Shown here piece after piece: positions 4,416-50,195 of a DNA stretch of 64,000 bases. A program made the translations under genes and the position numbers. Position 1 is the first letter of the stretch, and each line of letters starts with the position of its first letter. The notes under the pieces are model-generated. The model worked only from the letters and a program-made list of their open reading frames with translations, did not search any database and was not told the origin of the DNA. Origin of the DNA: Apostichopus japonicus (lineage: Eukaryota; Echinodermata; Holothuroidea; Aspidochirotida; Stichopodidae). The DNA lies in the NCBI RefSeq assembly GCF_037975245.1, contig NC_092572.1:3323501-3387500 (forward strand). The letters run 5' to 3'.

Positions 4416-6080
4416 TCAATTGTCACTGAAGTCTGGTGGCTCGGAATTCCTGCAGCTTATTCCTCTGCATTCGGTGCAAACATCACTGCAGAAGAGACCA
4501 TGGTGACGACATGTACACCTATTCGTGTTGCACTGAGTCTTGCAGCCACAACAGATGAAATTCAGTAGTTCAGATGGTGCTGGAGATTTATCAGTCTGCT
4601 TAGGTAGATATTTACCATCTACGACATGCCAACCCCATTCCTCTGGTTTCATATTTCTGTTTGTCCCTTTCCACTGCATTATCTGGAAATACACCCGAAG
4701 GCTGTGATAAACGGCAGCTGCAGAAGTTGGAGGCAATGTTTGTGGTTGCACATGAGATGTGCCCTTGGAGATTTTCTCGCAAAACTTTCTGTAGCGAAGA
4801 GCGTCTAGTCGTTCTTCATCACCACCACCATAGAGGGACACAAGCGCCTTTTCCCCTGCTTTCACCAGATCATCTTTTGCTGCCTCCGTACAGTTGAATA
4901 CCTCGGCTTGTTTGCGAAATTTCGCTTTCTTTATCTCTTTAACGGCCAAGCCTTTCCCCAATCCAAATGGACGAGACGTCACATCGCAGCCGAGGAAGGC
5001 GTGAATGAAGAGAATATTATCACATATGTGAGGGCCTAGTGACTCCTTTGCTTGCTTTATGCACCATGATTTGGTTTGTTGTGCTGATTTCTTTGGCTCA
5101 GATCTCAGGAACAGCTCGTGTGCATTCATTTCAGCATGATGAAGTAGAAGGACCAGCAAATCTGTGTCGTCTCCTATCACAACAGTATCCCTGCTTCTGG
5201 CGGATGCAATAGCTGTCTGGACAATAAGGACATCAGCATCATCCTTCGTATGGTCTACGCTGCAGCCTGCTCTTTCTAGTTTGTCACTTACAAAGCATAT
5301 GAAGCGCTGTTTATTGACTTTGTTGTTCAGAAATTCCTCCTTCTTGGATTGGAGAACCATTCCACCCGTGAAGTGCACTGTAACGCCTGCACAATCTGCT
5401 GTTCTCCTCAGGTGGGTGGCATCTTTTATCGTGGGATCATCGCTATATCCATCAAACACAATGGCAGCAGGACCATATTTCTGTGTCACATACCTAACAT
5501 ACAGCTGGCTCACATTCTCAAAAGTAGATCCCCGGGGCCATGGCATTCTATGGAGCAATGCGCCGCCATCTAGAACATACTGGCAATCTCCACTGGGTTT
5601 GCGTTGCTCGTTTGGCATAGCTCTCCAAAGGGTATCAGCAAGGACTGCCTTCTTTGGCTGCAGAGGGAGACAAGATGATTCAAACAATGCAGGGGGATAA
5701 TTACAGAGTTCATACTGGAACAGCGCTGGCACATCTTGGTAGCGGTCTCGAACAGTAGTAAGTCGCTGAAATAACAGCTGGGGATCAACCGTAACAGATT
5801 TACCTGAGACCTTTACAGCTGACCGTGATGCTAGTGTGACCGCTTGGTCAGCTTTTCGGAATTTGAAAGCTTCAACAGATTTGCCTACCATTGAGGAGAG
5901 AATCTTTTCTCCAACTTCTCTTGATCTCTCAACGTTGACTCCTTCCTGTGCTGTCATGCCATTAGCTATGTTAACCAGTGACTCTTTCTCAGCAAAAGGA
6001 CTCCTCTCTGTCAGGTAGGTGATAAGCTGAAGTGTGTCACTCACATCTCTGGCTTGTCTAGCTGCTGAAGTATCCTTGTG
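4416..6080 (-). pseudogene. C-terminal part of the Academ-like protein: XPG/FEN1-like nuclease and Cys-rich tail
   Basis: This ~550-residue open frame is the end of the transposon gene; it has no start of its own and is reached by a frameshift. XPG/FEN1-type signatures occur in the right order: VLDGGALLH (first metal Asp), IVFDGY (like the FEN1 VFDG), ADVLI, VIGDDTDLLVL, and FLGCDVTSR followed by GLGKG, which resembles the helix-hairpin-helix region of FEN1. A Cys-rich tail follows (CCGCKTQCNTNRCTCRHHGL, then CSDVCTEC), a likely zinc-binding module. All expected acidic residues are present, so this segment looks little damaged. The reading frame upstream joins the central segment only if one base is restored near 6081-6090. 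Confidence 0.75.
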
Positions 6081-6087
6081 CTGGTCA

Positions 6088-8138
6088 CTAGTTTAATACG
6101 ACACTCAACTTTTGCATGGCTTCATTAGTGCTTGCACATGCTGGCATTGACAGAACCCACACCAGGCGTTGATTTTCAGTCATTCCTTTTCCTCTTGTGA
6201 GCCCACCATCAGTCTTAACACTTCTCATCAGTACTTGTTCGATAATTAAATCAGATGATAAACCTGCCCAAAACCTGTCACTCCTCCTCACCACATGATA
6301 GCCTTCCTGAAATTTTCGGTAGACATCTGGATGGGTTTCTGGTAGATTGAGCATTGTTTGCAAGTACACATATGCACATTTGGCATAAAGAGCATGTCCA
6401 GAGGCTGCAAAGTATGGCAACATGTCGTGAACTGTTTGGAGATGTAATCCCCAATTTCCAGTTCGTTCAGCCTTGAGAAATCGTTGAAGGATGTTTACCA
6501 TATCCATGTATTGGAACCAAAGTATGGCTGTCCTGGATGTCATTGTTTGCCTGAGATCTTCAAGTTTACATCTGATTCTCTTCAACACATCTGCTTTACA
6601 CGCTTCCTCTGCTGACAATGCAAAAGACATCACCTCATCATAGAGTTTTTTTGCTTCTGTCAAGTCGGTGGTGTCATGGATGGTGTCAATATCAATCCCT
6701 TGCTGTGTAAACACTAACCTGTCATCAGCATTTGGACCAACACTATCTCTTATTCTATCAAATGCGAGACCTGCCTTCTCCGTGCATTCACCATATATTT
6801 CTCTTTCCTCTTGAGCATTGTGAAAGACCCCTTGATGTTCTACATCTACGGCAGTGGTCGGCATTGAGACACTTTCTTCCAACCTGTCAAGATGAACATC
6901 CAGATCCACTGTTGGCACATTACCACTGACTACTGTCCTCTCGGAATTAACATCTACCTGGATGATTGGTATATGGACACTTTGTGCTATTCTGTCAATG
7001 TCTATATCCAGGGTATCACCACTCGCAGGGTCAACATCTCCTTCCGTGGTGGTTGGCATCTGGATACAGTGTACCATCCTTTCAGCTTCATCTACCTCTA
7101 CGGCTCTCATGTGGACATTCTCTATCATCCTGTCAAGATTAACATCTCTGTCTACAGCTGTCGGCACCCGGAAACTGTTTGCCATCCTTTCAACTTCAAC
7201 ACCTGCATCCATGGATGCTGGTACTTGGATATTGTCTGTCATACCTGCATGTTCAACATTTTCTTCTGTAGTTGGTGTTGTGACATTGTAGGCTTTTGCT
7301 GCAAGAATAGTGTTCAATGCTGCATCAACTAACATGTGACCACGGACTGCTCTGGATACAGCTTTGCCAGTCAGCATATGGCGGACAGCATTGCCTGCAT
7401 ACACAACTTCTAGGAGCTCTTGCAGTCCTGAGTCTGCCATCAAGTGCCCAATACTCCCTAGGAAACTCATTTCCATGTGGAACCCACCGAGTCTGAGAAC
7501 CACACGCTTGAGATCACTGCCAACTGGTTGAGACTGGATAATTGTCATGGCTTTCCAGTAAAGGGGTTGGTCAAAAGTGAGGATGGGAGTGACGTTCTGT
7601 TGCTTTGCTTGGGATGATACAAACTTCATCGTAGAATAAATGCAGGATGGATCACTTTGATCAAGATCAATCATTGGGAGAAATGTGACGGATGATTGTC
7701 CAGGGTATTGGCCATGATGAAGCATTTGCATCATACCTGACCATGCTGGTCTAGGGATGTGAAGCAGCAAAGATGTCTTCCACAGAATATCCAGTTGTGA
7801 TGTTGGATCTTCTATTGATACGTGAGTAATTGGCAGATATGTTAAAGGTGTGGTTTCCAGGGATGGGTAAACATCTACTTGAGGATCCATGGACTTAACA
7901 TCACTCTCAATGAGTTTAGCTGCAGTTCTGATTATTCTCAGCTTCTCATCTTCAGTATTCTCACGTTGTTGCTCTTTGTGGAATTCATGGAGGATTGACA
8001 TTGCTGTTTGGCGCAATGTAATTACGCATGCTTTCTTGGTTAGTGTAGTCATCATAAGTCTCTGACCAAAATGCTGCTGCAATCTGGTTTTCATATAAGG
8101 AGCACTGTATGGTGTATATTCTGAATTTTTGAGATTTT
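6088..8138 (-). pseudogene. central segment of the Academ-like protein
   Basis: This is a 668-residue open frame (about 8094 to 6088) whose true continuation reads upstream in the same frame to about 8135. The Met at 8094 is internal. It begins with KTRLQQHFG and contains a Trp-rich helical part (LDILWKTSLLLHIPRPAWSG). It then has a linker of about 150 residues made of imperfect repeats of ~20 residues, each around VPT-VD-D--LDRM/ERM. The last third (RTAILWFQYMDMVNILQRFL, GNWGLHLQTVHDMLPYFAAS) is typical of the large uncharacterised animal proteins that carry the XPG tail. The catalytic triad of the transposase cannot be assigned by eye. Confidence 0.65.
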
Positions 8139-8810
8139 GAGATTTTCACTCATCAGAAGAACAAGGTCATTGATAGTAATAAGTTCATCATCGTTTTCTT
8201 CCAAATAGTGTACCACTTTCATAAATGCTTCTGTTCTGTGCTTTGAATCTGGCCTTCCAACTTTGGTCTGTTTGGGTGTATGCTCAGTTGCATCTGTACA
8301 TTTTACTGGTACTCTTTTCCCTGTTCTGAAGTTGCTACTACACTGCTGATGGTACACTGCATCTGCAGCATGCAGGTCATTAATGGATGCTAGTCGGCCC
8401 AGGATTGCTTCAGCCCACTCGTCTTTCCTGGAATTGCATATTTGCACCACACTTTCTTGGAAATCCTTTGTTCTCACTGGATATACTTCAAAGCCTCTTT
8501 TTTTCCCTTCATCACACTTGGCCAATTGTCCGCAAAGTAAACAGTGATTGGTGAAGTCAAATGCTTGATGTGAACGAAGATCATGGCATTTTTCAACTGG
8601 CAACTGTTGAGACCCTATGTCACGTGCGATGGTTGATGGCCTGCAATATTCACGCCGACAGTCTACATGGACCTTATCTCCAGGAACAGTTTTTAAATCT
8701 CTTCCACGCTGGAGACTTGCTCGATTCACCCCATCGCTGCCTTTTGCTGTTAGGACAACACTCTTCGTTCCATCTGAGATGGTTTCATCACACAGACAAC
8801 ATTTATCCAT
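8091..8810 (-). pseudogene. N-terminal zinc-finger segment of the Academ-like protein
   Basis: The likely start is the ATG at 8810, giving MDKCCLCDE; the frame is open further upstream, but without a better ATG. Two CxxC...HxxxC modules are visible: CCLCDE with VHVDCRREYC, and HCLLCGQ with VYHQQCSSNF. The frame breaks near 8115-8135, in an A-rich run, where one base appears to be missing relative to the continuing protein. The last ~10 residues of this open frame are therefore frameshifted. With the next two segments it would form a single intron-less protein of roughly 1,450 residues. Confidence 0.65.
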
Positions 8811-9737
8811 GTTTACCGTTGTACGTAATTGTCTTGAACCCCACAACCATTGATTTTATGATCTCCTGGCGTAAAAAACAGAAGAGAAACTTCCCATTGT
8901 TACTGTGTAAATCCCTATGGCCAAAGGAACAGCTTGGGCTAACTCTAACCTATGCTAACAATGCAGTAGCCTAACGAGTATAGTCTTCATTTTCAACCCC
9001 ACCAACTGAGAGTCCTGGAGAAGTCTGTAATTCAGTTTCATTGGACTTTAGTTACAGTAGTAGTTCTATAAATGATTCTTCTTACCAACTTTGATGGAAA
9101 ATACATGTAAAGTGTCACAAAGGTACCTCTTGAGAGGCAAATCTTGGGCTTCGAAGAACCGAACCTCCGCACTGGTCTTGTCAGAGGTTCCAGGGGATCT
9201 CCCTGAAAAACGGTGGCGCTAGGCACCTATTGCTAGTGCTAGATCGCTGTAGAATTTGTCGCTGATCTCAGCGCTGTTTAGAGCGAAAAAAATCGGTTGT
9301 TGCGTTGTGGAGCTATGATTTGATGCCGCCGGGTCCATTTTCGACCAAAATTGGGTCAAATATGTTTTTTTTTCCTGGCACCTTCGACCTAATTCCCTAA
9401 TTCAATAGTGCTGCGACTTAAAATGAAACAAAATACACTATGACCATACGAAACACAATGCTGTACCATTACATAACTATATATTTTTTCTATTCAGCTG
9501 TTCCGTATGCAATATCTAAGTGTCACAATTTATAGCAAATATAAAATATAAAACAGATTAATAATAAGGTGTGATTATGCCCCCTTCTAAATAATCCCCG
9601 TGTAATTTTGTGCACTTTTATTCCTTGACAAATATGTGAAATCAGAACACTTGCCTGCTGCACTTTAGTTAAACTTACTAAAGACAGACAGAGTAATCTA
9701 CATAAGTATTGTGTGCATAAAACAATACAAATTGCAA

Positions 9738-24059: not shown

Positions 24060-24335
24060 AACCGAAACCTTTAATTATAACTTATTTTAAACGTATCTGT
24101 GATTAACCACGGTAGTCTAATAATTATAAACGTATCTATGATTAAACACGACTGCAAACTGCGGCCGCTTCAAGTGATGCTCAGTGGAGCGTGACCTGAC
24201 GGTCTGACGTCACTCCCTAATGCGGATAAGGGTTATTATAAACGTATCTGTGATTAATCACTATCACGTGATCTACCACAGATACGTTTATAATAATTAG
24301 ACTACCGTGATTTATCACGATAGTCTAATTATAAA
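24060..24335. repeat. nested fold-back around ATAAACGTATCTGTGATTA
   Basis: The phrase ATAAACGTATCTRTGATTA occurs twice direct on the left and once direct plus once inverted on the right (GATACGTTTATAATAATTAG). GGTAGTCTAATAATTAT has an inverted partner, AATTAGACTACC. The core (about 24160-24225) is more GC-rich. It looks like a small non-autonomous inverted-repeat insertion. Confidence 0.65.
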
Positions 24336-24337
24336 CA

Positions 24338-25690
24338 TTATGATATAACGTTTTAAGAAAACATTATTGAAACATTTTAAAGATATTTTGTAATGCAAAA
24401 CGTTATAAAAATGTTTTTAAAACGTTTTTAATATAACAGTTTGTGAACCTATTTGAATCAATTTGAGGATGCAGGCAATGTTTTTATTTTTTAAAATTTT
24501 TTTATTATTGCGTATATACCAACAACGCATAATTTTATCTGACTTCATTAGGAAACTAGATATTTGAACAACATTTTGATATAATGTTGTAGGTAGAACA
24601 TTTTTTAATCATTTTAAAAACATTTTCTTACAAATGTTATTGTATAACGCATTGAAAACATCATGATATCACGTTTTAAGAAAATATTATTGAAACATTT
24701 AAAGATATTTTGTGATGCAAAACGTTATAAAAATGTTTTTAAAACGTTTTTAATATAAAAGTTTGTGAACCTATATGAATCAATTTGAGGATGCAGGCAA
24801 TGTTTGTTTTTAGTCTTTTTTTATAATTTGATTGCGTATATACCAACAATGCAAACTTTTATCTGACTTCATTAGAAAATATTTATATGATATTTGAACA
24901 ACATTTTGATATAATGCTGAAGTTAAAACATTTTTTAAACATTTTAAAAACATTTTCTTACAAATGTTATTGTATAACGCATTGAAAACATTATGATATC
25001 ACGTTTTAAGAAAATATTATTGAAACATTTTAAAGATATTTTGTGATGCAAAACGTTATAAAAATGTTTTTAAAACGTTTTTAATATACAAGTTTGTGAA
25101 CCTATTTGAATCAATTTGAGGGTGCAGGCAATGTTTGTTTTTAGTCTTTTTTATTTAATTTTATTGCGTATGTACCAACAATGCAACTTTTATCTGACTT
25201 CATTAGAAAATAGTTATATGATATTTGAAAAACATTTTGATATAGTGTTGTAGGTAAAACATTTTTAAAACATTATAAAACATTTTCCTCAATGTTATTG
25301 TATAACAAATTAAAAACATTATGATATAACGTTTTAAGAAAATATTATTATAACATTAGGATGATATTTTATATAGCAAGACGTTTTAAAAATGTTTTTA
25401 AAATATTATTATTAACATGCAAGTTTATTAGCATATTTGAATCACATTTGATGAAGTGCCATTGTTTTCGTAGTTTTAATGCATCATATACCCACAATGC
25501 ATATTTCCATCTAATTAACGGTAGAATATATTTTTATGATATTTTAACAACATTTTGAAATAATATTGAAAACAAAACATTTTTTAAACATTTTTAAAAC
25601 ATTTTTATGTTATAAAATAACATCATAATAACGTTATATAAATATAATATAAAAATGTTTTGTTATAACGTTTCTACGACCTTTTAAAAA
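24338..25690 (+). repeat. four ~325-bp tandem units in the right subterminal block
   Basis: The phrase ATTATGATATAACGTTTTAAG (variants) recurs at about 24338, 24662, 24990 and 25318, a ~325-bp period. Each unit contains TTTGTGAACCTATTTGAATC, a GCAATGTTT patch and TTTATCTGACTTCATTAG. The last unit is more diverged and runs into the right end. Confidence 0.85.
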
Positions 25691-32405: not shown

Positions 32406-32814
32406 GTAAGCAATTTAAACACTAGAACACTTACATTTAAGTTTTGAAATTGTAAAAAACCAAGGTTCTTGCTTAAAACGTTTCTTTGTTTGTAAATTCA
32501 GTGGCTTTGTTAAAAACAACCTCTTTAAAATGGAACTTTAAAATGGGAGTTGAGTTCTATACTAAGACGTTTAATGGCAGTACGACATTCCTGCCTGCAG
32601 CAACTCTTGATAACGACTTTTGCGGTTCCGTAGTCTGGTAGCGAATGAATGTAACCTTTCTGCAGCAAGAAGTGAAGATACAAGGTTTAAATAGTCAAAC
32701 CGTATGAGTAAGGAATGGTGGTGCGGAAGGTCGGTGGGTATAAATTCGTTGTGTACAACGATCGCTGGTATACTGTATCATTTAACGAATATTTCTAATG
32801 TTCTTTCGTTGCAG

Positions 32815-33099
32815 CGATTTCTGAGGTATATGTTGCTGAAGGCGGTGTCATTCGTCTTAATTTTAGTTTAAGATATAATGGCTTTGGACGTTTAGAATTA
32901 CGACACAATACCAACGTTGTTTTTGCCAGATGTTCTGACACTACAGAGAATAATTCCAGAACACCTCTTTTGTTGTTTGATATATCCGACGGAATAACAA
33001 GCTTTACTATCACAGACTTCGTATCTTCGGACAATGGCCGATATATCTGTTGGTTCAATGGGGAAAAACAGGATCCTGTGTACGATCTATCAGTAATAT
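32815..33099 (+). CDS. exon 2 of an immunoglobulin-like gene: V-like domain lacking the first Cys
   Basis: This 285-nt exon is bounded by TTCTTTCGTTGCAG and GTAAGT and has phase-1 borders on both sides, the classic immunoglobulin-domain exon. It reads [20 protein letters not shown] near the B strand and [20 protein letters not shown] at the E-F strands (D-x-G-x-Y-x-C). The B-strand position that normally holds Cys is Phe (LNF), and the C-strand Trp is replaced by Leu (RLEL). Another Cys lies mid-domain (FARCSD) and could pair instead. The product is probably a secreted or membrane receptor of innate type; the ligand is unknown. No further exon is found nearby. A direct join to the exon at 60684 would create a TGA. 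Confidence 0.75.
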
Positions 33100-33142
33100 G
33101 TAAGTAGCAATCTTATCATTTTTAAAATATGTACGAATTTAG

Positions 33143-33146
<4 letters not shown>

Positions 33147-33218
<72 letters not shown>

Positions 33219-33227
33219 TATATATAC

Positions 33228-33326
<99 letters not shown>

Positions 33327-33327
33327 T
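33147..33327. repeat. (TA)n and (TG)n microsatellite
   Basis: About 155 bp of nearly pure TA is followed by about 24 bp of TG. The open frames over it (long runs of Tyr-Ile) are artefacts. It directly precedes the hammerhead region and lies in the intron after the immunoglobulin-like exon. Confidence 0.97.
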
Positions 33328-33396
33328 GAATGTGGAGCAAGTGGTATGACAGATATATAGTAAATCAATAAAGAATAACACACCAGAAAAATTCCA

Positions 33397-33438
33397 CTTC
33401 ACGACCGGTTTCGTCCTTTTGGGACTCATCAGGCGAAG
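33397..33438 (-). ncRNA. type I hammerhead self-cleaving ribozyme
   Basis: On the minus strand the order is stem I CTTCGC, core CTGATGA, stem II GTCC-CAAAA-GGAC, core GAAA, the short palindromic stem III ACCGGT, cleavage site GTC, then stem I partner GTGAAG. All conserved core bases are present. Stem I pairs over six positions with one G-U wobble and stem II over four. The very short palindromic stem III implies action as a dimer, as known for hammerheads in Penelope-like retroelements and small retrozyme repeats. Predicted cleavage lies between 33403 and 33402. A tRNA-like B box begins a few bases upstream on the same strand. Confidence 0.85.
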
Positions 33439-33441
33439 GTA

Positions 33442-33452
33442 GGAATCGAACC
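33442..33452 (-). promoter_or_regulatory. tRNA-like B box next to the hammerhead
   Basis: The minus strand reads GGTTCGATTCC within CCGGGGTTCGATTCCTAC, a good RNA polymerase III B box and T-arm. It ends four bases before the hammerhead stem I. No A box is visible, because a TA microsatellite lies upstream. It may be a truncated tRNA-derived SINE carrying the ribozyme. Confidence 0.55.
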
Positions 33453-33484
33453 CCGGATCTTTGTGTATATAGATAGATATATAT

Positions 33485-35065
33485 ATATATAGGCACCGGT
33501 TCTAATCCCGATGGAGACTGGAAGTTTGAATTATCAATTTATTTACTAACTTGTATGGCCAGTTTTTATTATTTAAGTTTCTAAAACAAATATTGGCCAG
33601 ATGTGGCACATATGAGCACCTTGATAGAGATAAACAGTCACTAAAGTAATTCAACCATAATAGTCATTTTTAATTCACACGGGAAGGGATGTACCCCTGC
33701 TACGGATCACCACCCCAACCCCACCCCACCCGCGCCTTAATGAATTTCACACGGAACCCCAAAACCATTAGCAAAACCTTGCGTTTAGAGCTACTTTATA
33801 GAAATCATGTTATAGCGTCAATTTGCCTCAAAAGCAGCATTTAGTGTATACGTTTTCATTTGTTTCTGTTAGGCGCAGAATTTCATTTGACCCAATATTG
33901 TAAAATTGCAAAACTCCACAACCATAAATCGGATTGTATCCAAACTTGGGATACAGTGGTGGGTGAGTAGCTGGTACATGTAGGCCTCAAGGTTGAATGG
34001 CTGTCTATATAGGCCCCATAAACGTCTGGGCGCATTTGTAGGCCGGTGGGCCCAGAATTTTATTTCCACCCCAGATACATTTTGATACACATTGTTTTGG
34101 TCCGATTTTCTGGGCCCACATTTTAGGGTTATATATTTTGGAGTCAGTTTGTTTGGGCGGAATAGTTTGGGGATCATTCAGGCGCCAATTGTATTACACT
34201 ATGTCACTAAATATGCTTTATTAACATGATAACTGATTCCTGATACCTTCCTTAATATGTTGCTGCAATAATCAATAGATAGTCATTTGGTGTGCACAAG
34301 TTCATGCATATTACCATGTATGGTTTACCACACTATGAATATGTTTAGACATCGGAACCACTAATCTTTTTCGTTTTCTTGTTCTTAGGTAAGGGGTGAC
34401 AGTCATCCCAGCGTACAATATGAAGATCGCATGATTTGCCTTCCATATTGTCCCATGACATCACAAATACGTACCAAATCTGACGTTTAAAAAGATTTAC
34501 TTTTGCCTTCGGCATCGGAACCAACTCAATGGCCCACAAGTTTGAACAAACGGCCCAAAAGATTTGCACTAGGCGAGTTAAAGGACCATTAATGCCTTAG
34601 GTGTGAGTATCCTATCGGTCTATACATGTACATTCTTCAATTTATATTAGTGAGATTTAGGTTTTCTTGGTTCTGCTCTCGAACAATTTTTCCCCCTGCA
34701 AATTGGTTGCAAGGTGGTTGCAAAGTGGTTGCAAAGTGGTTGCAAAAGTGTTAATAGATTACAAAACACTGTTGAACCTTTGAGAGTTCTTGTGTATCTA
34801 TCTACATGGTATTATTACAATGTTGTGACCATCTTAGTAGTAAGATCAAATACGAATGATGCTACATAGTTGGAGTTATTGAAGTTTCATTACCCCAATG
34901 AGGGAAAGCTTTATTCAATTAAGGTCATCAGTTTTGGCCCCAAAATATCTGAATGTTATAAATTGCATAAACAGTTAATGAAAGGATACCATGTTTTTAG
35001 AGAGAATCTGATCTTCGAAGTTATTTCGAAAAAAATTGAGCTACGATCATTTAGATGCTCCGACT
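33485..35065. other. no recognised gene; one short tandem repeat
   Basis: Intron-like sequence. GTGGTTGCAAA repeats about four times at 34703-34750. The open frames here have no splice context. Confidence 0.4.
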
Positions 35066-37914: not shown

Positions 37915-40900
37915 TCATCGTCCATTTGGTAGTGCTATTTCTTCGCGTGCCGACTGTCTCCTCTCCATTCGTCACGAAGCGGAATCCATCCGCCTGTGGA
38001 ATAGTCGGAGGTCTTGGTTGCCCTTACACTATTTCTGTCCAAGGAGTGACTTTTGTATTCTCTAACGTAAAGGGGAAAGGATACACTGGGCTTTGAATAT
38101 CGCTGAACGGGTTGGTAGCTCGAAATGGTTACGCTTGACCCTCTGTATTCCTGGTTCTCTTCTCGGCTGGAGTTTTAAGGACATTGGTTGGAGGAACCAG
38201 ATCAGATCCAACTCGGATCGATGGTCAGCATATTCGTCTATCAGCAGCCACTTTTACTCTGGATTCCTATCTTCATGATTTGAGTGACCCCGCAGTTCGG
38301 ATTTTACCACTTGACTGCTTGAGAGACCATCAGTCAAAAGATACTACCACTGTTACCAAATGTAACATCTATTTGAGTCCGTCAGGATCTTTTAACTAAT
38401 GGACCTAACCCAGAGAACGCAAATCTGAATTATGACAGAATCTCACCGAAGATAAGAAAACAGAATCGTTAAATCTCTCTGACATACCTTGCTTGAGGCG
38501 TTTATTTTCAATGAGAAATTCGAGACAAACACTAATATTCAAATCATAAAATGAAGATAAAGCTGCTTAGAATTTGTGGAGTTCTTGGGTAACCGATATA
38601 AACTCTTCTTGCGTCACTTGCGTTACCTTCTGTGCGTAACCGGCGAAGCTTCGTGCGTCAATGGCGTAACACCTTATGTATAACCGGCGAAACCTCGTGC
38701 GTCACTGACGTTACACTCGGTGCGTAACCGGCGTATCACTCTTGGTGCGTCACTGTCGTTACGCTTGGTGCGTCACCGGCGTAATCCCGCCGTGCCTCAC
38801 TGCCGTAACACTAGATGCGTAAATGATTACCCTTTACCGTGCAACATTCCGCTTTCTTCGTCTTTACTTGGGCGTAGGCTACTATTCGCACACACGTAGT
38901 GTCGTATCGTAGTCTCAATTAGGGGTCCCAAACAAGCACCTGTTTCTCTTTTACTTTCAAGCGAACCAGTTGTACAATGGGAAATTTCTAGTATATCACG
39001 GTTTCAATCAAATACATCGGGCTTAATCCCCGACGTCCCGTAAAAAGTGTAACGATTCGCTCTGTTATCCGGATTATATCGTCTTAATCATTCATCGTCC
39101 ATTCGGTAGTGTGATTCCTTCGCATGCCGACTGTCTCCTCTCCATTCGTCACGAAGCGGAATCCACCGTATGTGGAATAGTTGGGGTACTGGGTTGCCCT
39201 TCCACTATTTCTGTCCGTGGGGTGACTTCTGTATTCTTTAACGTCAAGTGAACAAGGATACACTGGGCTTTGAATATCACTGAACGGTTTGTAGCTTGAA
39301 ATGGCTACTCCTGACCCTCCACATTCCTGGTTCTCATCTCGGCTGGAGCTGTAAGGACATTGGTTGGAGGAACCAGATCAGATCCAGCACTGGATCGTTG
39401 GTCAGCATATTCGTCTATCAGCAGCCACTTTTACTATGGATTCCTATCTTCATGATTTGAGTGACCCCACTGCTCGGATATTGCCACTCGACTGCTTTGA
39501 GAGTCCATCAGTCAAAAGATACTACCACTGCAACCAATTGTAACGTCTCCTTGAGTCCTTCAGGAACTTCCAACTAATGGACCTAACCCAGAGAACGCAA
39601 ATCTTAATAAGGACATAATCTCACAGAATATAAGAGAACAGAACCGTTAAATTTCCATATCATACCTTGCTTGGGGCGTTTATTTTCAATGATAAATTCA
39701 AGGCGAGCACAGAATTATAGAAGTACATGCAAAAACCATATAATATATAAATCATAAAATGAAGATAAAGCTGCTTAGAATTTGTGGGGTTCTTGCGTTT
39801 TCGACATAAACTCTTCTTGCGTCACTGGCGTTACCTTCTGTGCGTAACCGGCGAAGCTTCGTGCGTCAATGGCGTAAAACTTCATGCGTTACCGGCAAAA
39901 CCTCGGGCGTCACTTGCTTTACACTCGATACGTAACCGGCGTATGCCCTTCGTGAGTCACTGGCGTCACCTTCTGTGCGTAACCGACGAAGCTTTGTGCG
40001 CCAATAGCGTAACTCTGCATGATATAACCGGCGAAACTTCGTGCGTCACTGGCGTTGCACTCGGTGCGTAACCGGCGTAAACTCTTCGTGCATCACTGTC
40101 GTAGTCCCGTTAAAAGTGTAACGATTCGATCTGTTATCCGGATTATATCGTCTTAATCTTTCTTCGTCCATTCGGTAGTGTGATTCTTTCGCGTGTCGAC
40201 TGTCTCCTTTCTATTTGTCACGAAGCGGAATCCATCCGCCTGTGGAATAGTTGGGGTACTGGGTTGCCCTTCCACTATTTCTGTCCGTGGGGTGACTTCT
40301 GTATTCTTTAACGTCAAGTAAAAAGGATACACTGGGCTTTGAATATCGCTGAACGGGTTGGTAGCTTGAAATGGCTACGCTTGACCCTCCACATTCCTGG
40401 TTCTCATCTCGGCTGGAGCTGTAAGGATATTGGTTGGAGGAACCAGATCAGATCCAACACTGGATCGATGGTCAGCATATTCGTCTATCAGCAGCCACTT
40501 TTACTATGGATTCCTATCTTCATGATTTGACCCCAAGGTTCGGTTATTACCACTCGACTGCTTTGAGAGTCCATCAGTCAAAAGATGCTACCACTGCCAC
40601 CAATTGTAACGTCTCCTTGAGTCCGTCAGGAACTTCCAACTAATGGACCTAATCCAGAAGACGCAAATCTTACTAAGGACAGAATCTCACAGAAGATAAG
40701 AAAACAGGAACGTTCAATTTCCCTGCCATACCTTGCTTGAGGCGTTTATTTTCAACAATAAATTCGAGGCGAGCACTGACTAATTAAATGTAAAAATTAG
40801 ATAATATACAAATCATAAAATGAAGATAGAGCTGCTTAGAATTTGTGGGGTAATTGCGTAACCGATATAAACTCTTCTTGCGTCACTGGCGTTACCTTCT

Positions 40901-41844
40901 ATGCGTAACCGTCGAAGCTTCGTGCGTCAACGGCGTAACACTCAGTGTGTTCGGATATTACCAATCGACTATTTTGAGAGTCCATCAGTCAAAAGATACT
41001 ACCACTGCCACCAATTGTAACGTCTCCTTGAGTCCGTCAGGATCTTCCAACTAATGGACCTAACCCAGAGAACGCAAATTTTAATAAGGACAGAATCTCA
41101 CAGAAGATAAGAAAACAGAATCGTTAAATTTCTCTGCCATACCTTGTTTGAGACGTTTATTTTCAAAAAGAAATTCGAAGCGAACACTGACTTATAAAAT
41201 TACATGCAAAAATTAGATAATATTCTAATCATAAAATGAAGATAAAGCTGTTTAGAATTGGTGGGGTTCTTGCGTTACCGATATAAACTCTTCTTGCGTC
41301 ACTGGCGTTACCTTCTGTGCGTAACCGGAGAAGGTTTGTGCGTCCATGGCGTAACACTTCATGCGTAACCGGCGTAAGCTCTTCGTGCGTCACTTTCGTT
41401 ACACTTGGTGCGTCACCGGCGTAATCCCGCCGTGCCTCACTGCCGTAACACTAGGCGCGTCAATGATTACCCTTTACCGTGCAACATAATGCTTTCTTCG
41501 TCTTTACTTGGGCGTAGGCTACTATTCGCACACACGTAGTGTCGCATCGTCGTCTCAATTAGGAGTCCCAAACAAGCACCTGTTTCTCTTCTACTTTCAA
41601 GCGCACCAGTTGTGCAAGTGAGATTTCCAGGAAATCACGGTTTCAATCAAATACATCGGGCCTAATCCCCGAAGTCCCGTTAAGAGTGAAACGATTCGCT
41701 CTGTTATCCAGATTATATCTTCTTAATAATTCATCGTCAGTTCGATAGTGTGATTCCTTCGCGTGCACACTGTCACCTCTCCATTCGTCATGAAGCGGAA
41801 TCCATCTGCCTGAGGAATAGTCGGGGTACTGGGTTGCCCTTCCA

Positions 41845-42084
41845 CTATTTCTGTCCGTGGGGGTGACATCTGTATTCTCTTACGTCAAGGGAAAAAGGAT
41901 ACCCTGGTCTCTGTATATCGCTGAACGGGTTGGTAGCTCGAAATGGATACGCTTGACCCTCCACATTCCTGGTTCTCATCGCGGCTGGAGTTGTAAGGAC
42001 ATTGGTTGAAGGAACCAGATCAGATCCAACACAGGATCGATGATCAGCATATTTGTCGATCAGCGGCGAAGCTTCGTGCGTCAA
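41845..42084 (-). pseudogene. gag start in tandem unit
   Basis: This open frame covers the leader and gag start: DKYADHRSCVGSDLVPSTNV, then TTPAAMRTRNVEGQAYPF and PFSLDVREYRCHP. It is then cut by a frame break. It shows that the gag frame begins upstream of the DVREYRSHP motif shared with the plus-oriented copy at 36.97 kb. Confidence 0.55.
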
Positions 42085-43460
42085 TGGCGAAACACTTCAT
42101 GCGTTACCGGCGAAACCTCGTGCGTATCCGACGTACACTCCTCGTGCGTCACTTTCGTTACACTTGGTGCGTTAACGGCGTAAAACCCTCCGTGCTCACT
42201 GACGTAACACTAGGTGCGTAAATGATTATCCTTTACCGTGCAACACTCTGTTTTCTTCGTCTTTACTTGGGCGTAGGCTACTATTCGCACACATGTAGTG
42301 TCGCATCGTCGTCTCAATTAGGAGTCCCAAACAAACACCTGTTTTTCTTTTACTTTCAAGTGCACCAGTTGTACAAGTGGAGATTTCCAGGAAATCACGG
42401 TTTCAATCAATTACATCGGGACTTATTCCCGACGTCCCGTTAAAAGTGTAAAGATTCGCTCTGTTATTTGGATTATATCGTCTTAATCATTCATCGTCCA
42501 TTCGGTGTTCTGATTCCTTCGGATGCAGACTGTCTCCTATCCATTCGTCACGAGGCGGAATCCATCCGCATGTTGAACAGTCGAGGTACTGGGTTGCCCT
42601 TCCACTATTTCTGTCCGTGGGTTGACTTTTGTATTTTCAAACCTCAAGGGAGAAAAGATACACTGGGCTACTCTATCAGCAGCCACTTTTACTCTGGATT
42701 CCTATCTTCATGATTTGAGTGACCCCACGGTTCGGATATTACCATTTGACTGTTTTGAGAGTCTATCAGTCAAAAGATACAATCACTGCCACCAATTGTA
42801 ACGTCTCACTGATCCCGTCAGGATCTTCCAACTAATGGACCTAACCCAGAGAACGCAAATCTTTATAATGACAGAATCTCACAGAAGATAAGTAAACAGA
42901 ATCGTTAAATTTCTCTGCCATACCTTGCTTGAGGCGTTTATTTTCAATGAGAAATTCGAGGCGAGCACTGACTCATATAGATACATGAAAAATTTCGATA
43001 ATATTCAAATCATCAAACGAAGATAAAGCTGCTTAGAATTTGTGGGGTACTTGCGTAAACGACATGAACTCTTCTTGCGTCACTGGCAATACCTTCTGTG
43101 CGTAACCGTCGAAGCTTAGTGCGTCAATGGCGTAATACTTCAAGCGAAACCGGCAAAACCTCGTGCGTCACTGGCGCTACACTCAGTCCGTAACCGGCGT
43201 AAACTCTTCGTGCGTCACTTTCGTCACACTTGGTGCGTAAACGGCGTTAACACCGCGTGCCTCACTACCGTAACACTAGGTGCGTAAATGATTACCTTTT
43301 ACCGTACAACACTTTTCGTCTTTACTAGGGCGTAGGCTACTATTCGCACACACGTAGTGTCGCATCGTCGGCTCAGTTAGGAGTCTCAAACAAGCACCTG
43401 TTCCTCTTCTACTTTCAAGTGCACCAGTTGTGCAAGTGGAGATTCCAGGAAGTCACGGTT

Positions 43461-43721
43461 TCAATCAATTACATCGGGCCTAATCCCCGACGTCCCGTTA
43501 AAAGTGTAAAGATTCGCTCTGTTATTTGGATTATATCGTCTTAATCGTTCATCGTTCATTCGGTAGTGTGATTCCTTCGCGTGCAGACTGTCTCCTCTCC
43601 ATTCGTCACGAAGCGGAATCCATCCGCCTGTGGAATAGTCGTGGTACTGGGTTGCGCTTCTACTATTTCTTTCCGTGGGGTGACTTCTGTATTCTCTTAC
43701 GTCAAGGGAAAAAGGATACAC
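43461..43721 (-). pseudogene. gag start in tandem unit
   Basis: An ~86-residue open frame carries PFSLDVREYRSHPTERN, GGWIPLRDEWRGDSLHAKES and YTFNGTSGIRPDVID. It is one of the best preserved copies of the repeated gag fragment. The frame ends where gag is fused to the next unit's U3. Retention of an open frame in several units may be chance or recent amplification. Confidence 0.6.
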
Positions 43722-46700
43722 TGGGCTTTGAATATCGCTGAACGGGTTGGAAGCTCGAAATGGTTACGCTTGACCCTCCACATTCCTGGTTCTCATCTCG
43801 ACGGAGATGTAAGGACATAGGTTGGAGGAAACAAGATCAGATCCAACACTGGATCGATGGTCAGCATATTCGTCGATCAGCAGTCACTTTTACTCTGGAT
43901 TCCTATCTTCATGATTTGAGTGACCCCACGGTTCGGATTTTACCACTCGACTGCTTTGAGAGTCCATCAGTCAAAAGATACTACCACTGCCACCAATTGT
44001 AAAGTCTCCTTGATTCCTCAGGATCTTCCAACTTATGGACCTAACCCAGAGAACGCAAATCTTAATAGTGACAGAATCTCACAGAAGATAAGAAAACAGA
44101 ATCGTTAAATTTTTCTTCATACGTTGCTTGGGGAGTTTATTTTCAATGAGAAATCATAAAATGTAGATAAAACTGCCTAGAATTTGTGGGGTTCGTGCGT
44201 AAACGATATAAACTCTTCTTGCGTCAATGGCGTTACCATATGTGCGTAACTGGCGAAGCTTCGTGCGTCAATGGGGTAACACTTTCTGCGTTACCGGCGA
44301 AACTTGGGTGTCACAGGCGTTACACTCGGTGCGTAACCGGCGTAAACTCTTCGTGTGTCACTTTCGTTACACTTGGTGCGTAACAGGCTCAACCCTTCGT
44401 GCCTCACTGCCGTAACACAAGGTGCGTCAATGATTAGCTTTTACCGTGCAACACTCTGCTTTCTTCGTCTTTACTTGGGCGTAGGCTACTATTCGCCCAC
44501 ACGTAGTGTCGCATCGTCGTCTCAATTAGGAGTCCCAAACAAGCACCTGTTTCTCTTCTACTTTCAAGCGCACCAGTTGTGCAAGTAGAGATTTCTAGTA
44601 TATCACGGTTTCAATCAAATACATCGGGCCTAATCCCCGACGTCCCGTTAAAATGTTAACGATTCCCTCTGTTATCCGGAATTTAACGTCTTAATCATTC
44701 ATCGTTCATTCGGTAGTGTGACTCCTTCGCGTGCCGACTGTCTCCTCTCCATTCGTCACGAAGCGGAATCCATCCGCTTGTTGAATAGTCGTGGTACTGG
44801 GTTGCCTTTCTACTATTTCTGTCCGTGGGATGACTTCTGTATGCTCTAACGTCAAGGGAAAATGATACTCTGGGCTTTGAATATCGCTGATTCGGTTGGT
44901 AGCTCGAAATGGTTACGCTTGACCCTCCACATTCCTGGTTCTCATCTCGGCTGGAGCTGTAAGGATATTGGTTGGAGGAACCAGTTCAGATCCAACACAG
45001 GATCGATGATCAGCATATTCGTCGATCAGCAGGCACTTTTACTCTGGATTCCTTTCTTCATGATTTGAGTGACCCCACTGTTCGAATTTTACCACTCGAC
45101 TGCTTTGAGAGTCCATCAGTCAAAAGATACTACCACTTCCACCAATTGTAACGTCTCCTTGAGTCCGTCAGGATCTTCCAACTAATGGACCTAACCCAGG
45201 GAACGCAAATCTTAATAAGGACAGAATCTCACAGAAGATAAGAAAACAGAATCGTTAAATTTCCCTTTCATACCTTGCTTGAGGCGTTTATTTTCAATGA
45301 GAAATTCGAGGCAAACACTGACTTATATAATTACATGCAAAAAATTCAATAATATTTCAATCATAATATGTAGATACAGCTGCTTAGAGTTTGTGGGGTT
45401 CTTGCGTAACCGATATAAAATCTTCTTGCGTCAATGGCGTTACATTCTGTGCGTAATCGGCGAAGCTTCGTGCGTCAATGGCGTAACACTTCATGCGTTA
45501 CCGGCAAAAACTCGTTCGTCACCGGCGTAAACTCTTCGTGCGTCACTGTCGTTACACTTGGTGCGTAAACGGCGTAAACCCCCCGTGCTCACTGCCGTAA
45601 CACTAGGTGCGTAAATGAGTATCCTTTACCGTGCAACACTCTGCTTTCTTCGTCTTTACTTGGGCGTAGGCTACTATTCGCACACACGTAGTGTCGCATC
45701 GTCGTCTCAATAAGGAGTCCAAAACAAGCACCTGTTTTTCTTCTACTTTCAAGCGCACCAGTTGTACAAGTAGAGATTTCCAGGAAGTCACGGTTTCAAA
45801 CAATTTTATCGGTCCTAATCCCCGACGTCCCGTTAAAAGTGTAAAGATGCACTCTGTTATCCGGATTATTTCGTCTTAATCATTCATCGTCCATTCGGTG
45901 GTCTGATTACTTCGCATGGAGACTGTCACCTCTCCATTCGTCACGGAGCAGAATCCATCCGCATGTGGAACAGTCGTGGTACTGGGTTGCCCTTCCATTA
46001 TTTCTGTCCGTGGGTTGACTTTTGTATTCTCTAACGTCAAGGAAAAAAGATACACTGGGCTACTCTATCAGCAGCCACTTTTACTCTGGATTCCTATCTT
46101 CATAATTTGAGTGACCCCACGGTTCGGATATTACCAATCGACTGTTTTGAGAGTTTATCAGTCAAAAGATACTACCCCTGCCACCAATTGTAACGTCTCC
46201 TTGATTCAGTCAGGATCTTCCACCTAATGGATCTAACCCAGAGAACACAATTCTTAATAAGGACAGAATCTCACAGAAGATAAGAAATCAGAATCGTTAA
46301 ATTTCTCTGCCAAACCTTGCTTGAGGTGTTTATTTTCAATGAGAAATTCGAGGCGAGCACTGACTTATATAGATACATGCAAAAATTAGATAATATTCAA
46401 ATCATAAAATGAAGATAAAGCTGCTTAGAATTTGTGGGGTACTTGCGTAACCGACATAAACTCTTCTTGCGTCACTGGCAATACCTTCTGTGCGTAACCG
46501 GCGAAGCTTCGTGCGTCAATGGCGTAACACTCCATGCGTTACCGGCAAAACCTCGTGCGTCACCGGCGTTACACTCGGTGCGTAACCGGCGTAAACTCTT
46601 CGTTCGTCACTGCCGTAACACTAGGTGCGTCAATGATTACCTTTTACCGTGCAACACTCTGCTTTTTCGTCTTTACTAGGGCGTAGGCTACTATTCGCAC

Positions 46701-46811
46701 ACACGTAGTGTCGCATCGTCGGCTCAGTTAGGAGTCTCAAACAAGCACCTGTTCCTCTTCTACTATCAAGTGCACCAGTTGTGCAAGTGGAGATTCCAGG
46801 AAGTCATGGTT

Positions 46812-47069
46812 TCAAACAATTTTATTGGGCCTAATCCCCGACGTCCCGTTAAAAGTGTAAAGATTCGCTCTGTTATCCGGATTATTTCGTCTTAATCGTT
46901 CATCGTCCATTCGGTAGAATGATTCCTTCGCGTGCAGACTGTCTCCTCTCCATTCGTCACGTAGCAGAATCCATCCGCCTATGGAATAGTCGGGGTACTG
47001 GGTTGCCCTTCCAATATTTCTGTCCTTGGGGTTACTTCTGTATTCTCTAACGTCAAGGAAAAAATACAC
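46812..47069 (-). pseudogene. gag start in tandem unit
   Basis: This is the same gag fragment as at 43461-43721, with substitutions (FFLDVREYRSNPKDRN, GGWILLRDEWRGDS). It is open for ~85 codons. Differences between units are mostly point changes, so the copies can be ordered by divergence. Confidence 0.6.
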
Positions 47070-48999
47070 TGGGCCTTGAATATCGCTGAACGGGTTGGAA
47101 GCTCGAAATGGTTACGCTTGACCCTTCACATTCCTGGTTCTCATCTCGGCTAGAGTTGTAACGACATTGGTTGGAGGAACCAGATCAGATCCAGCACTGG
47201 ATCGTTGGTCAGCATATTTGTCTATCAGAAGCAACTTTTACTCTGGATTCCTTTCTTCATGATTTGACCCCAAGGTTCGGATATTACCACTCGACTGTTC
47301 TGAGAGTCCATCAGTCAAAAGATACTACCACTGCCACCAATTGTAAGGTCTCCTTGAGTCCGTCAGGATCTTCCACCTAATGGACCTAACCCAGAGAACG
47401 CAAATCTTAATAATAACAGAATCTCACAGAAGATAAGAAATCAGAATCGTTAAATTTCCCTTTCATACCTTGCTTGATGCGTTTATTTTCAATAAGAAAT
47501 TCGAGGTGAGCACTGACTTGTATAATTACATGCAAAAATTAGATAATATTCAAATCATAAAATGAAGATAAAGCTGTTTAGAATTTGTGGGGTTCTTGCG
47601 TAACCGATATAAGCTCTTCTTGCGCCAATGGCGTTACCTTCTGTGCGTAACCGGCGAAGCTTCGTGTGTCAATGGCGTAACACTTCATGCGTTACCGGTG
47701 AAATCTCGTGCGTATCCGACGTACACTCCTCGTGCGTCACTTTCGTTACACTTGGTGCGTAAACGGCGTTAACACTCCGTGCCTTACTGCCGTAACACTA
47801 GGTGCGTCAATGATTACATTTACCGTGCAACACTCTGCTTTTTCGTCTTTACTTGGGCGTAGGCTACTATTCGCACACACGTAATGTCGCATCGTTGTCT
47901 CAATTAGGAGTCCAAAACAAGCACCTATTCCTCTTCTACTTTCAAGTGCACCGGTTGTGCAAGTAGAGATTTCCAGGAAATCACGGTTTCAATCAAATAC
48001 ATCGGGCCTAATCCCCGACGTCCCGTTAAAAGTGTAAAGATTCGCTCTGCTATCCGGATTATATCGTCTTAATCATTCATCGTCCATTCGGTAGTGTGAT
48101 TCCTTCGCGTTCAGACTGTCTCCTCTCCATTCGTCACGAAGCGGAATCCATCCGCCTGTGGAATAGTCGGGGTACTGGGTTGCCCTTCCACTATTTCTGT
48201 CCGTGCGATGACTTTTGTATTCTCTAACGTCTAGGGAAAACAGATACACTGGGCTTTGAATACCGCTGAACGGGTTGGTAGCTCGAAATGGTTACGCTTG
48301 ACCCTCCACATTCCTAGTTCTCATCTCGGCTGGAGTTGTAAGGACATAGGTTAAAGGAAACAGATCAGATCCAGCACTGGATCGATGGTCAGCATATTCG
48401 TCTATCAGCAGCCTCTTTTACTCTGGATTCCTATCTTCATGATTTGAGTGACCCCACGGTTCGGATATTACCACTCGACTGTTTTGAGAGTCCATCAGTC
48501 AAAAGATACTACCACTGCCACCAATTGTAACCTCTCCTTGAGTCCGTCAGGATCTTCCAGCTAATGGACCTAACCCAGAGAACGCAAATCTTAATAAGGA
48601 CAGAATCTCACAGAAGATAAGTAAACAGAATCGTTAAATTTTTCTTACATACCTTGCTTGAGGCGTTTATTTTCAATGAGAAATTCGAGGCGAATACTGA
48701 CTTATATGATTACATGCAAAAATAAAATAATATTCAATTCATAAAATGTAGATAAAGCTGCTTAGAATTTGTGGGGTTCTTGCGAAAACGATATAAACTC
48801 TTCTTGCGTCACTGGCGTTACCTTCTGTGCGTAACTGTCGAAGCTTCGTGCGTCACTCGCCTTTAACTCGGTGCATAACCGGGGTAAAATGTTCGTGCGT
48901 CACTGTCGTTACACTTGGTGCGTAACCGGCGAAAACCCTCCGTGTGTCACTGGCGTAACACTAGGTGCGTCACCGGCGAAACTTCGTGAGTCATATAGA

Positions 49000-49625
49000 C
49001 TTCCGTTATCTCCCTCTATCACACGGGAATGAAGAGCATATGATTGACCTGTCAACAAGACTTTTACTCAGCCGTCGCCTAGCAGATAACCTCCTTGTCA
49101 CACGATAAGTCGAACTCTCTCCCGTTACCTCTACGTAGGCCTGCCTCTAAGATTCCCTGAGTCCTTGAACTCGCCCTTGGGTAAAAATCCCGGTCCCAAA
49201 GTTGCCAAATCCAACAGTTCTCCCAAACCCTGGCTTATCCGTACTCCTAGGGTTCAGAGATTCCTGAGTCTCAACTTAGTAAAAAAAATGGTTACCCTTT
49301 ACCATGCAGCACTCTGCTTTCTTCTTCTTTACTTGGGTGAAGGCTACTATTAACACACACGTATTGTCGCATCGTCGTCTCAATTAGGAGTCCCCAAACA
49401 ATCACCTGTTTCTCTTCTACTTTCAAGCGCACCAGTTGTACAGGTAAAGATTTCCAGAAAATCACGGTAGCGCGGGGTCGTGACCCAGGTAGACAGAAGG
49501 TAGACAGAAAGGCGGGAAGCCGCAAAGGGAAGCCGGACTAGGTAGCCGTGCTCGCCAATCAAAACAACACTACTGCTACAAAAAGTCGAGTTAAACAGGA
49601 CATCAGCACAGAAACGAAAAAACGA
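49000..49625 (-). repeat. right inverted end: outer LTR (U3) segment, minus orientation
   Basis: It is the reverse complement of 36230-36830, including TCTACGTAGGCCTGCCTC, GGTTACCCTTTACCATGCAG and GACATCAGCACAGAAACGAA at the outer edge. On its left it continues directly into GCGTAAC subrepeats of the last tandem unit. Confidence 0.85.
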
Positions 49626-49799
49626 CATCACATTTCGCAGATCGAATAACCAATCTGGAAAGATTCCTTGTATAGAAACCTTGTATAGGTGTACCAGCTT
49701 GCTATGGGCAAGGAAATATCATGGAAAGACCCTGCTCATATAGTAAATAAAAATTGTAGTTTTGTCCGAGACAGAAACTGAAAATTATTCACTTCAATC

Positions 49800-50195
49800 G
49801 TATCCGCGGAAGGTTCGCCGGTTACTCACGAAGTGTATCGCCGGTAACGCAAGAATTTTAACCCCAGTGACGCACGGAGACTTTACTCCGGTTACACAAG
49901 GAGTGTAACGCCTGTTACGAGCGAAGATTTCCGCCGGTTACGCACAAAGTGTAACGCCACTGTCGCACGAAGCTTCGCCGGTTACCCACAGAAGGTGACG
50001 CCAGTGACTCACGAAGAGATTACGCTGGTTACGCAAGAACCCCATAAATTCTAAGCAGCTTGATCTGCATTGAATGATTTGTATATTGTCTGATATTTTA
50101 ATGTAATTATTTTAGTCAGTGTTCGCCCAGATTTTGTCATTCAATATAAACGTCTCAAGCAAGAACGTTGACATTATAAACGTCTCAAAATATCG
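49800..50195 (+). repeat. plus-oriented gypsy LTR fragment, first part
   Basis: GCGTAAC-type subrepeats in opposite orientation to the array (for example GAAGCTTCGCCGGTTACCCA) lead into CCCATAAATTCTAAGCAGCT, then a TATT...TTTTAGTCAGTG promoter-like part, then ATATAAACGTCTCAAGC. The LTR continues at 51075 after a LINE-bearing insertion. Confidence 0.75.

Follow-up and report, generated by a model that had tools for sequence, protein, structure and literature searches.

A repeated 341-base element with a tRNA-like head and a type I hammerhead ribozyme in the sea cucumber Apostichopus japonicus, probably a retrozyme inserted at (TA)n

The stretch of DNA analyzed here (the window) comprises 64,000 nucleotides of the A. 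japonicus genome and holds, on its minus strand, what is probably a truncated copy of a non-autonomous retrozyme of the metazoan (non-LTR) type, in which a tRNA-like head and a type I hammerhead are fused in a unit of 341 bases and which would be inserted by way of RNA circles primed at (TA)n. The anatomy of retrozymes is itself known; what is new is a tRNA-headed retrozyme family with an informative insertion record. The DNA of the family alone records where reverse transcription started, how far it extended and the use of both sides of the break.

The Rfam model Hammerhead_1 (RF00163) matches positions 33397-33438 (-) over its full span with 38.8 bits and an E value of 2.8e-6 in the search of the 64-kb window. 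The gathering score of the model is 34 bits, and by this Rfam measure the ribozyme is a real type I hammerhead. A second model, HH9 (RF02275), has a wider coverage of the flanks and aligns with 33382-33449 at 40 bits; its gathering score of 52 is reached neither by the window copy nor by the copy in L008 (47 bits). The letters of the core are all intact, with CUGAUGA at 33432-33426, GAA at 33412-33410, A15.1-U16.1, and C17 at 33403, in the usual hammerhead core numbering. The predicted cut site lies between 33403 and 33402, and the 5' end at 33402 proposed by the initial annotation of this DNA agrees with the core layout. That annotation also described all core bases and three stems: the bases are there, while three stems is a generous count, as helix III consists of a single A-U pair capped by the palindromic loop CCGG. 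Such a minimal helix III suggests that the hammerhead would act as dimers. The active fold is not the minimum-energy prediction, in which the CUG of the core pairs with CGG instead, and the stability of the 71-nt extended motif is not above that of its shuffles (z -0.49, 64/200). The top-scoring hammerhead of the analysis is at L006:1501-1543 (+) with 46.7 bits; there the loop of helix III is CGCG in place of CCGG, both being palindromes.

Upstream of the ribozyme is the sequence GGTTCGATTCC at 33442-33452 (-), a perfect match to the B box consensus GGTTCGANTCC. A B box in this place had been noted before and is confirmed, except that stem I starts three bases after it and not four. Among the 105 distinct rows with an exact core, the place of the B box keeps GTTCRANNC intact in 61 and GGTTCGANTCC in 48. 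The last five bases of the window B box, AUUCC (33446-33442), may also extend stem I by pairing with GGAAU at 33391-33395 (-), the outer 3' strand of stem I predicted by the HH9 alignment and the fold; across the copies, 436 of 525 cells of this outer stem are paired and 7 are compensatory, so that the covariation is weak. Further along the minus strand are a run of five T at 33387-33391, a possible Pol III terminator, and at 33376-33386 the 3' arm of an inverted repeat (unit 49-59), whose partner at unit 257-267 is found in full copies; this 5' arm is absent from the window copy. The whole fragment occupies 33326-33466 (-), corresponds to unit positions 308 to 109 of the 341-base repeat, and is 141 bases long and 95.8% identical to the unit of the L143 locus. 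It is 5'-truncated and has no A box, and we read it as a dead, worn retroelement copy.

The copy is bordered by microsatellites, as had been claimed from the TA and TG repeats. A (TA)n and (TG)n stretch at 33143-33325 adjoins its 3' end, and a TA/GATA stretch at 33467-33491 adjoins its truncated 5' end. ARAGORN found no tRNA anywhere in the 64-kb window. An open reading frame at 32799-33107, which matches no Pfam family, is followed by GTAAGT, and because the ribozyme element lies 3' of this frame, it is possibly intronic and antisense to it. If the plus-strand frame is an exon, its transcript would carry an inactive antisense ribozyme. A second tRNA-headed repeat has left a remnant of 30 bases beside the copy, at 33498-33527 (+) (86.7%, E 3.7e-4). 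Scored as tRNA, its full copies in L006, L030 and L034 reach 41.8-55.3 bits, and the repeat gave 31 matches in 25 of the 139 sequences searched, near ribozyme copies.

The genome searched consists of 671,581,487 bases in 35 contigs. The exact ribozyme core occurs at 328 places, on both strands and, among the first 100 listed of the 328, on nine contigs; its reversed control gave 0. The profile search of the genome, in which 74 of 66,307 first-look candidates were scored, returned at least 59 matches with at least 50 over the cut-off. The A-box 16-mer has 304 exact places, and a pattern of this 16-mer, then 28-58 bases, then the ribozyme start CTGATGAG, which does not require the B box, has 192 matches with a reversed control of 0. 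A longer head with up to 2 mismatches gave 508 matches (control 0), and the 20 bases directly 3' of stem I gave 232 exact matches (control 0). Among 30 copies listed, words with at most 2 substitutions were found on the expected side in 27 (B-box-like) and in 20 (A-box-like). At the loci L006 to L055, 31 of 61 core matches (28 of 53 distinct) are preceded by a perfect B box that starts exactly 20 bases ahead of the core, and 24 of the 61 (20 of 53) by a perfect A box at a distance of 63 bases, with both boxes perfect in only 12 of the 61, equally 12 of the 53; the figure of 61 includes some places seen twice through overlapping loci. A chance motif is ruled out by the 328 exact cores and the 192 combined matches against reversed controls of 0. 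These searches identify a repeated, dispersed element with an A box and a B box in the same orientation directly upstream of the hammerhead. The initial annotation had asked whether other copies share the B box-hammerhead order, and they do. The B box-hammerhead pattern had 0 matches in bacterial and archaeal contigs and 0 in viral contigs. A looser viral scan returned 5 contigs, with hammerhead-like sequences after TTCAAACCC or TTCGATTCCCC at L002:7949-7996 (+), L005:1718-1765 (+) and L003:4756-4804 (-); ARAGORN found no tRNA in the 5 contigs, and the 3 that were searched with Rfam had no match at gathering score.

The full unit, which occurs singly or head to tail, is 341 bases long and joins the tRNA-like head (A box, 32 bases, B box) to the hammerhead. 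Unit 279-289 forms the A box and unit 322-332 the B box, which leaves 32 bases between them, as in a tRNA. Rfam nevertheless does not recognize the head as one, with no RF00005 match in the units and 17.4 bits (E 1.9) for tRNA-Sec. Head-to-tail copies with a period of 341 are present in L030, and in the array of L143 three units are identical over 341/341 and 147/147 compared bases, an identity that makes the amplification look very recent. The GC content of the unit, 41.9%, is under the limit of 45-50% below which retrozymes are placed. When folded as a circle, the L143 unit reaches -92.6 kcal/mol (z -3.1), with 0 of 100 shuffles as stable and 61% of its bases paired, which is below the 70% quoted for others (PMC4918200, in part). 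The longest helix of this circular fold has 12 bp, joins 47-58 with 258-269, and surrounds the head and the ribozyme together with most of the T run; it overlaps the inverted repeat mentioned above, through which unit 49-59 can pair with 257-267 around head and ribozyme in full copies. No compensatory changes were found for the 12-bp helix in 78 copies, and the covariation is uninformative here, presumably because the copies are decayed siblings. All mapped loci were drawn by the ribozyme except L143, which was drawn by head matches, so that the conservation of the ribozyme and the sequence across its cleavage site are biased.

The ends of the copies were mapped by reducing 184 mapped pieces to 157 unique copies, with the L030 unit as the reference for end positions. 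The 3' ends cluster at unit 80 (44 copies) and unit 117 (20 copies), and 120 of the 157 lie within unit 60-120. Of 156 copies, 100 have a TA run within the 30 bases that follow the 3' end, and 34 of 157 have one within the 30 bases that precede the 5' end, compared with 218 of 6477 background windows. The 5' ends of the 157 copies are scattered across the unit with no common start; 36 of the copies are longer than one 341-base unit and 121 are not. Ends within 3 bases of the ribozyme cleavage site number 2 and 2 of 157, a scarcity that is biased because nearly all the loci were chosen by the ribozyme. In 102 copies there was no excess of target-site duplications (TSDs) over shuffled flanks, and the retrozyme description that mentions a TSD of more than 4 bp applies it "when present". 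We infer from the ends that the element is retrotransposed from circular or multimeric RNA primed at (TA)n. One copy, in L109, is flanked by an 18-base direct repeat, the sole non-TA TSD candidate of such length among the 102 copies tested.

Among neighboring copies within 40 bases of each other, 31 junctions are 5' to 5', none is 3' to 3' and 3 are direct, and a refined map made with the L143 unit contains 38 of the 5'-to-5' pairs. Where the outer 3' ends could be classified (18 pairs), 14 combine both 3' sites, for a permutation mean of 9.3 (P 0.037). In 33 of the 38 pairs the two members meet at unit positions that differ by more than 20, and in 5 by 1 to 17, which makes snap-back (fold-back copying) unlikely for those 33. 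The joints are short overlaps or gaps, from -7 to +28. We read these pairs as the likely outcome of priming from both ends of a (TA)n break. TA runs were found in both outer flanks of 15 pairs, in one of 12 and in neither of 11 (the L143 pair, one of the 11, sits at the edge of its stretch), and (TA)n priming leaves those 11 TA-less pairs unexplained. A similar inverted arrangement in L1 elements has been ascribed to two priming events at one target, called twin priming (PMC2837659, in part); the sea cucumber pairs differ from it in having two outer 3' ends, often at two fixed short-unit sites, and no TSD excess. The same neighbors bear on the view that the element is a satellite which spread by unequal crossing-over and microsatellite slippage without any retrotransposition. 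Head-to-tail units would be expected of such a satellite, and L030 and L143 have them; 31 inverted neighbors to 3 direct ones would not, nor would 121 of 157 copies no longer than one unit, the focused 3' ends, or cores that are found on both strands and on nine contigs among the first 100 listed, and we regard this view as scarcely credible.

A closer alternative is patch repair, according to which retrozyme RNA or cDNA would be captured at spontaneous breaks of fragile (TA)n by any available reverse transcriptase, with no element-encoded nuclease, the two ends priming on any RNA that happens to fit; it departs from the preferred explanation only as to where the break and the enzyme come from. 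The 38 inverted pairs with joints of -7 to +28 and the lack of TSD excess are what patch repair would leave, and the palindromic nature of (TA)n could let both ends prime at the same RNA sites. The concentration of 3' ends on two sites looks more like a dedicated pathway, and the 11 of 38 pairs that have no TA run in either outer flank also weigh against capture at (TA)n. We consider patch repair possible but doubtful.

Copies longer than one unit allow two passes over the same sequence to be compared. In 21 of 26 such copies the likeness between the passes exceeds that to the median other copy, in 9 of the 26 it equals or exceeds that to 95% of the others, and in 5 of the 26 it does not exceed the median. 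This likeness would fit one template having been copied more than once in the younger copies. The DNA suggests repeated copying of a single template, and a linear multimer would be compatible with it as well as a circle.

The boxes of the head raise the question of Pol III. Divergence is 5.5% in the A box and 4.9% in the B box, compared with a mean of 9.5% and with 12.6% between the boxes, and among 292 windows ranked from low divergence the A box is 47th and the B box 27th. Of the 108 copies scored, 100 have four or more T in a row after the ribozyme; 10 of the 157 copies, being under 60 bases, were dropped from both the divergence and the T-run scoring. For the analysis of starts, 162 copies were reduced to 72 by dropping 2 edge copies, those with 3' ends outside unit 55-122 and those with inverted partners. 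When 5' ends are counted in 11-base windows, the fullest is 257-267 (with 256-266 equal to it), which lies 12-22 bases upstream of the A box. It holds 10 of the 72 unpaired copies where 2.3 are expected, the other starts being scattered, and uniform draws give a 95th percentile of 9 for their fullest window; the observed 10 should be read knowing that the window was partly chosen after seeing the starts and that L079 and L080 look like one insertion counted twice. A genome-wide control of 5' ends, in one bin only, gave 0 matches. With 3' ends past the T run in 120 of 157 copies, a normally terminated Pol III transcript cannot be the template of those copies. On these sequence features, the chance that the tRNA-like head is used by Pol III is about even. 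A Pol III-promoted retrozyme would consist of the 5' arm, A box, B box, hammerhead, T run and 3' arm and would give a self-cutting tRNA-like transcript, while leaky termination on tandems would lead to circles, primed symmetrically by (TA)n break ends; we offer this as a tentative proposal. If true, it would fill two gaps stated for animal retrozymes, whose promoter and integration route are described as unknown. The tRNA-like head might also help the host tRNA ligase find RNA ends.

The same observations have to be weighed for an ordinary SINE derived from a tRNA, with a hammerhead as an incidental part, a linear Pol III transcript, reverse transcription by a LINE, no circle, and tandems as secondary duplications. 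The A and B boxes with their gap of 32, the 5' ends clustered where Pol III would be expected to start and the TA runs 3' of the copies would suit a SINE, and the copy in L066, which starts at unit 262 and runs for 540 bases, is what a two-unit read-through transcript would produce. A SINE accounts poorly for 5' ends all round the unit, for 36 of 157 copies longer than one unit, for the 3' ends at unit 60-120 that lie beyond the T run in 120 of 157 copies, and for the lack of TSD excess, and the pass-to-pass identity suggests one template recopied in the younger copies. An ordinary SINE is in our judgment unlikely, even though the comparable Sm-alpha repeat of schistosomes is called SINE-like (PMC2770079 and PMC8490949, both in part). 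The SINE-like vehicle suggested by the initial annotation thus stands as to its Pol III-type boxes and falls as to a plain SINE, given the absence of a common 5' end, the long copies, the missing TSD excess and a head that does not score as a tRNA.

The retrozyme reading that we prefer can be set out as a series of steps. Tandem units would be transcribed, either by Pol III, recruited by the internal A and B boxes and reading through the T run, or by read-through of a host polymerase. Hammerheads of neighboring units would cut the multimer to 341-base monomers, probably as dimers since helix III is minimal, and the host tRNA ligase would close the monomers to circles. Broken or nicked (TA)n ends could then anneal to UAUAUA-like sites of the RNA at unit about 80 and about 106-119 and prime a reverse transcriptase supplied by another element; this would often happen on both sides of the break. 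The cDNAs would extend for a variable distance, sometimes for more than one lap, and would be joined 5' to 5' or to the flank.

In the published account, animal retrozymes consist of tandemly repeated units, each about 170-400 nt long and with a type I hammerhead, and are made into circles that tRNA ligases probably close (PMC7229834, in part). The sea cucumber unit shares with these metazoan non-LTR retrozymes the type I hammerhead, a tandem unit in the reported range of about 170-400, low GC and a self-paired predicted RNA, and differs in carrying A and B boxes (PMC7229834, in part). The (TA)n-linked ends and the 5'-to-5' pairs of its copies also set it apart; the words "microsatellite" and "inverted" are absent from the main text of PMC7229834, and "microsatellite" from PMC7761336. 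Newt and axolotl retrozymes have the same one-pair helix III with a palindromic tetraloop and a reported efficient dimer cleavage, and a tRNA-like head, present in the sea cucumber unit, is not mentioned for them in the corresponding portions of PMC7229834. The minimal helix III could also recall Penelope-like elements (PLEs), of which the window copy would then be a fragment of the terminal region. In a PLE, a reverse transcriptase, often with a GIY-YIG reading frame, lies between terminal repeats that bear the hammerheads. PLE hammerheads are reported to have a minimal helix III (PMC6155905), and mussels and other invertebrates with retrozymes also have PLEs (PMC7229834), but the relevant portions of these two papers describe no PLE terminal repeats that contain a 341-base tandem unit headed by a tRNA-like sequence, and a PLE origin seems very improbable to us.

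For the preferred retrozyme reading, the closest precedent of a tRNA-headed hammerhead element is schistosome Sm-alpha, which is already known. Sm-alpha and Sj-alpha share with the sea cucumber element a SINE-like repeat and a type I hammerhead (PMC2770079, PMC8490949, PMC4918200, each in part), and by its published description Sm-alpha also has a tRNA-derived head and a length of about 335 bases. It has been treated as an exception among retrozymes for having a full tRNA (PMC4918200, PMC2770079, in part). The head of Sm-alpha comes from tRNA-Gln-TTG and is recognized as a tRNA, whereas the sea cucumber head does not score as a tRNA; the sea cucumber B box may overlap the extended stem I, and the two hosts belong to different phyla. 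A review states that animal retrozymes seem to be without promoters and without a conserved motif that would reveal an autonomous partner element (PMC7761336, in part), and their transcription and insertion are an open question to which this family, with its plausible internal promoter, is relevant. The family is a probable deuterostome counterpart of Sm-alpha, in an animal from which RNA can readily be prepared. In the sea cucumber genome paper, SINEs are put at 0.02% and no ribozyme class is listed (PMC10344927, in part). Among the literature matches listed, which are the best of longer lists, none concerned an echinoderm tRNA-hammerhead element or a retrozyme Pol III promoter, a weak indication at most.

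Other repeats and mobile-element sequences are present in the window. A reverse transcriptase encoded there matches two A. japonicus proteins, one at 97% identity over 76% of its length and the other at 98% over 56%. At 24333-25403 is a tandem repeat of 331 bases, in 3.3 copies with 90% matches and many AAAACATTTTA-like words, and 38605-50039 contains interspersed arrays of a 23/44-47-base repeat (CTTCGTGCGTCACTGGCGTAAC-like), roughly every 1.2 kb. Three long frames lie at 4416-8855 (-), one of them of 558 residues. This frame had at least 610 homologs (E <= 0.001) among 7997 scored candidates, with up to 72% identity over the full length; the named ones come from many animal phyla, and the frame probably encodes a widespread mobile-element protein.
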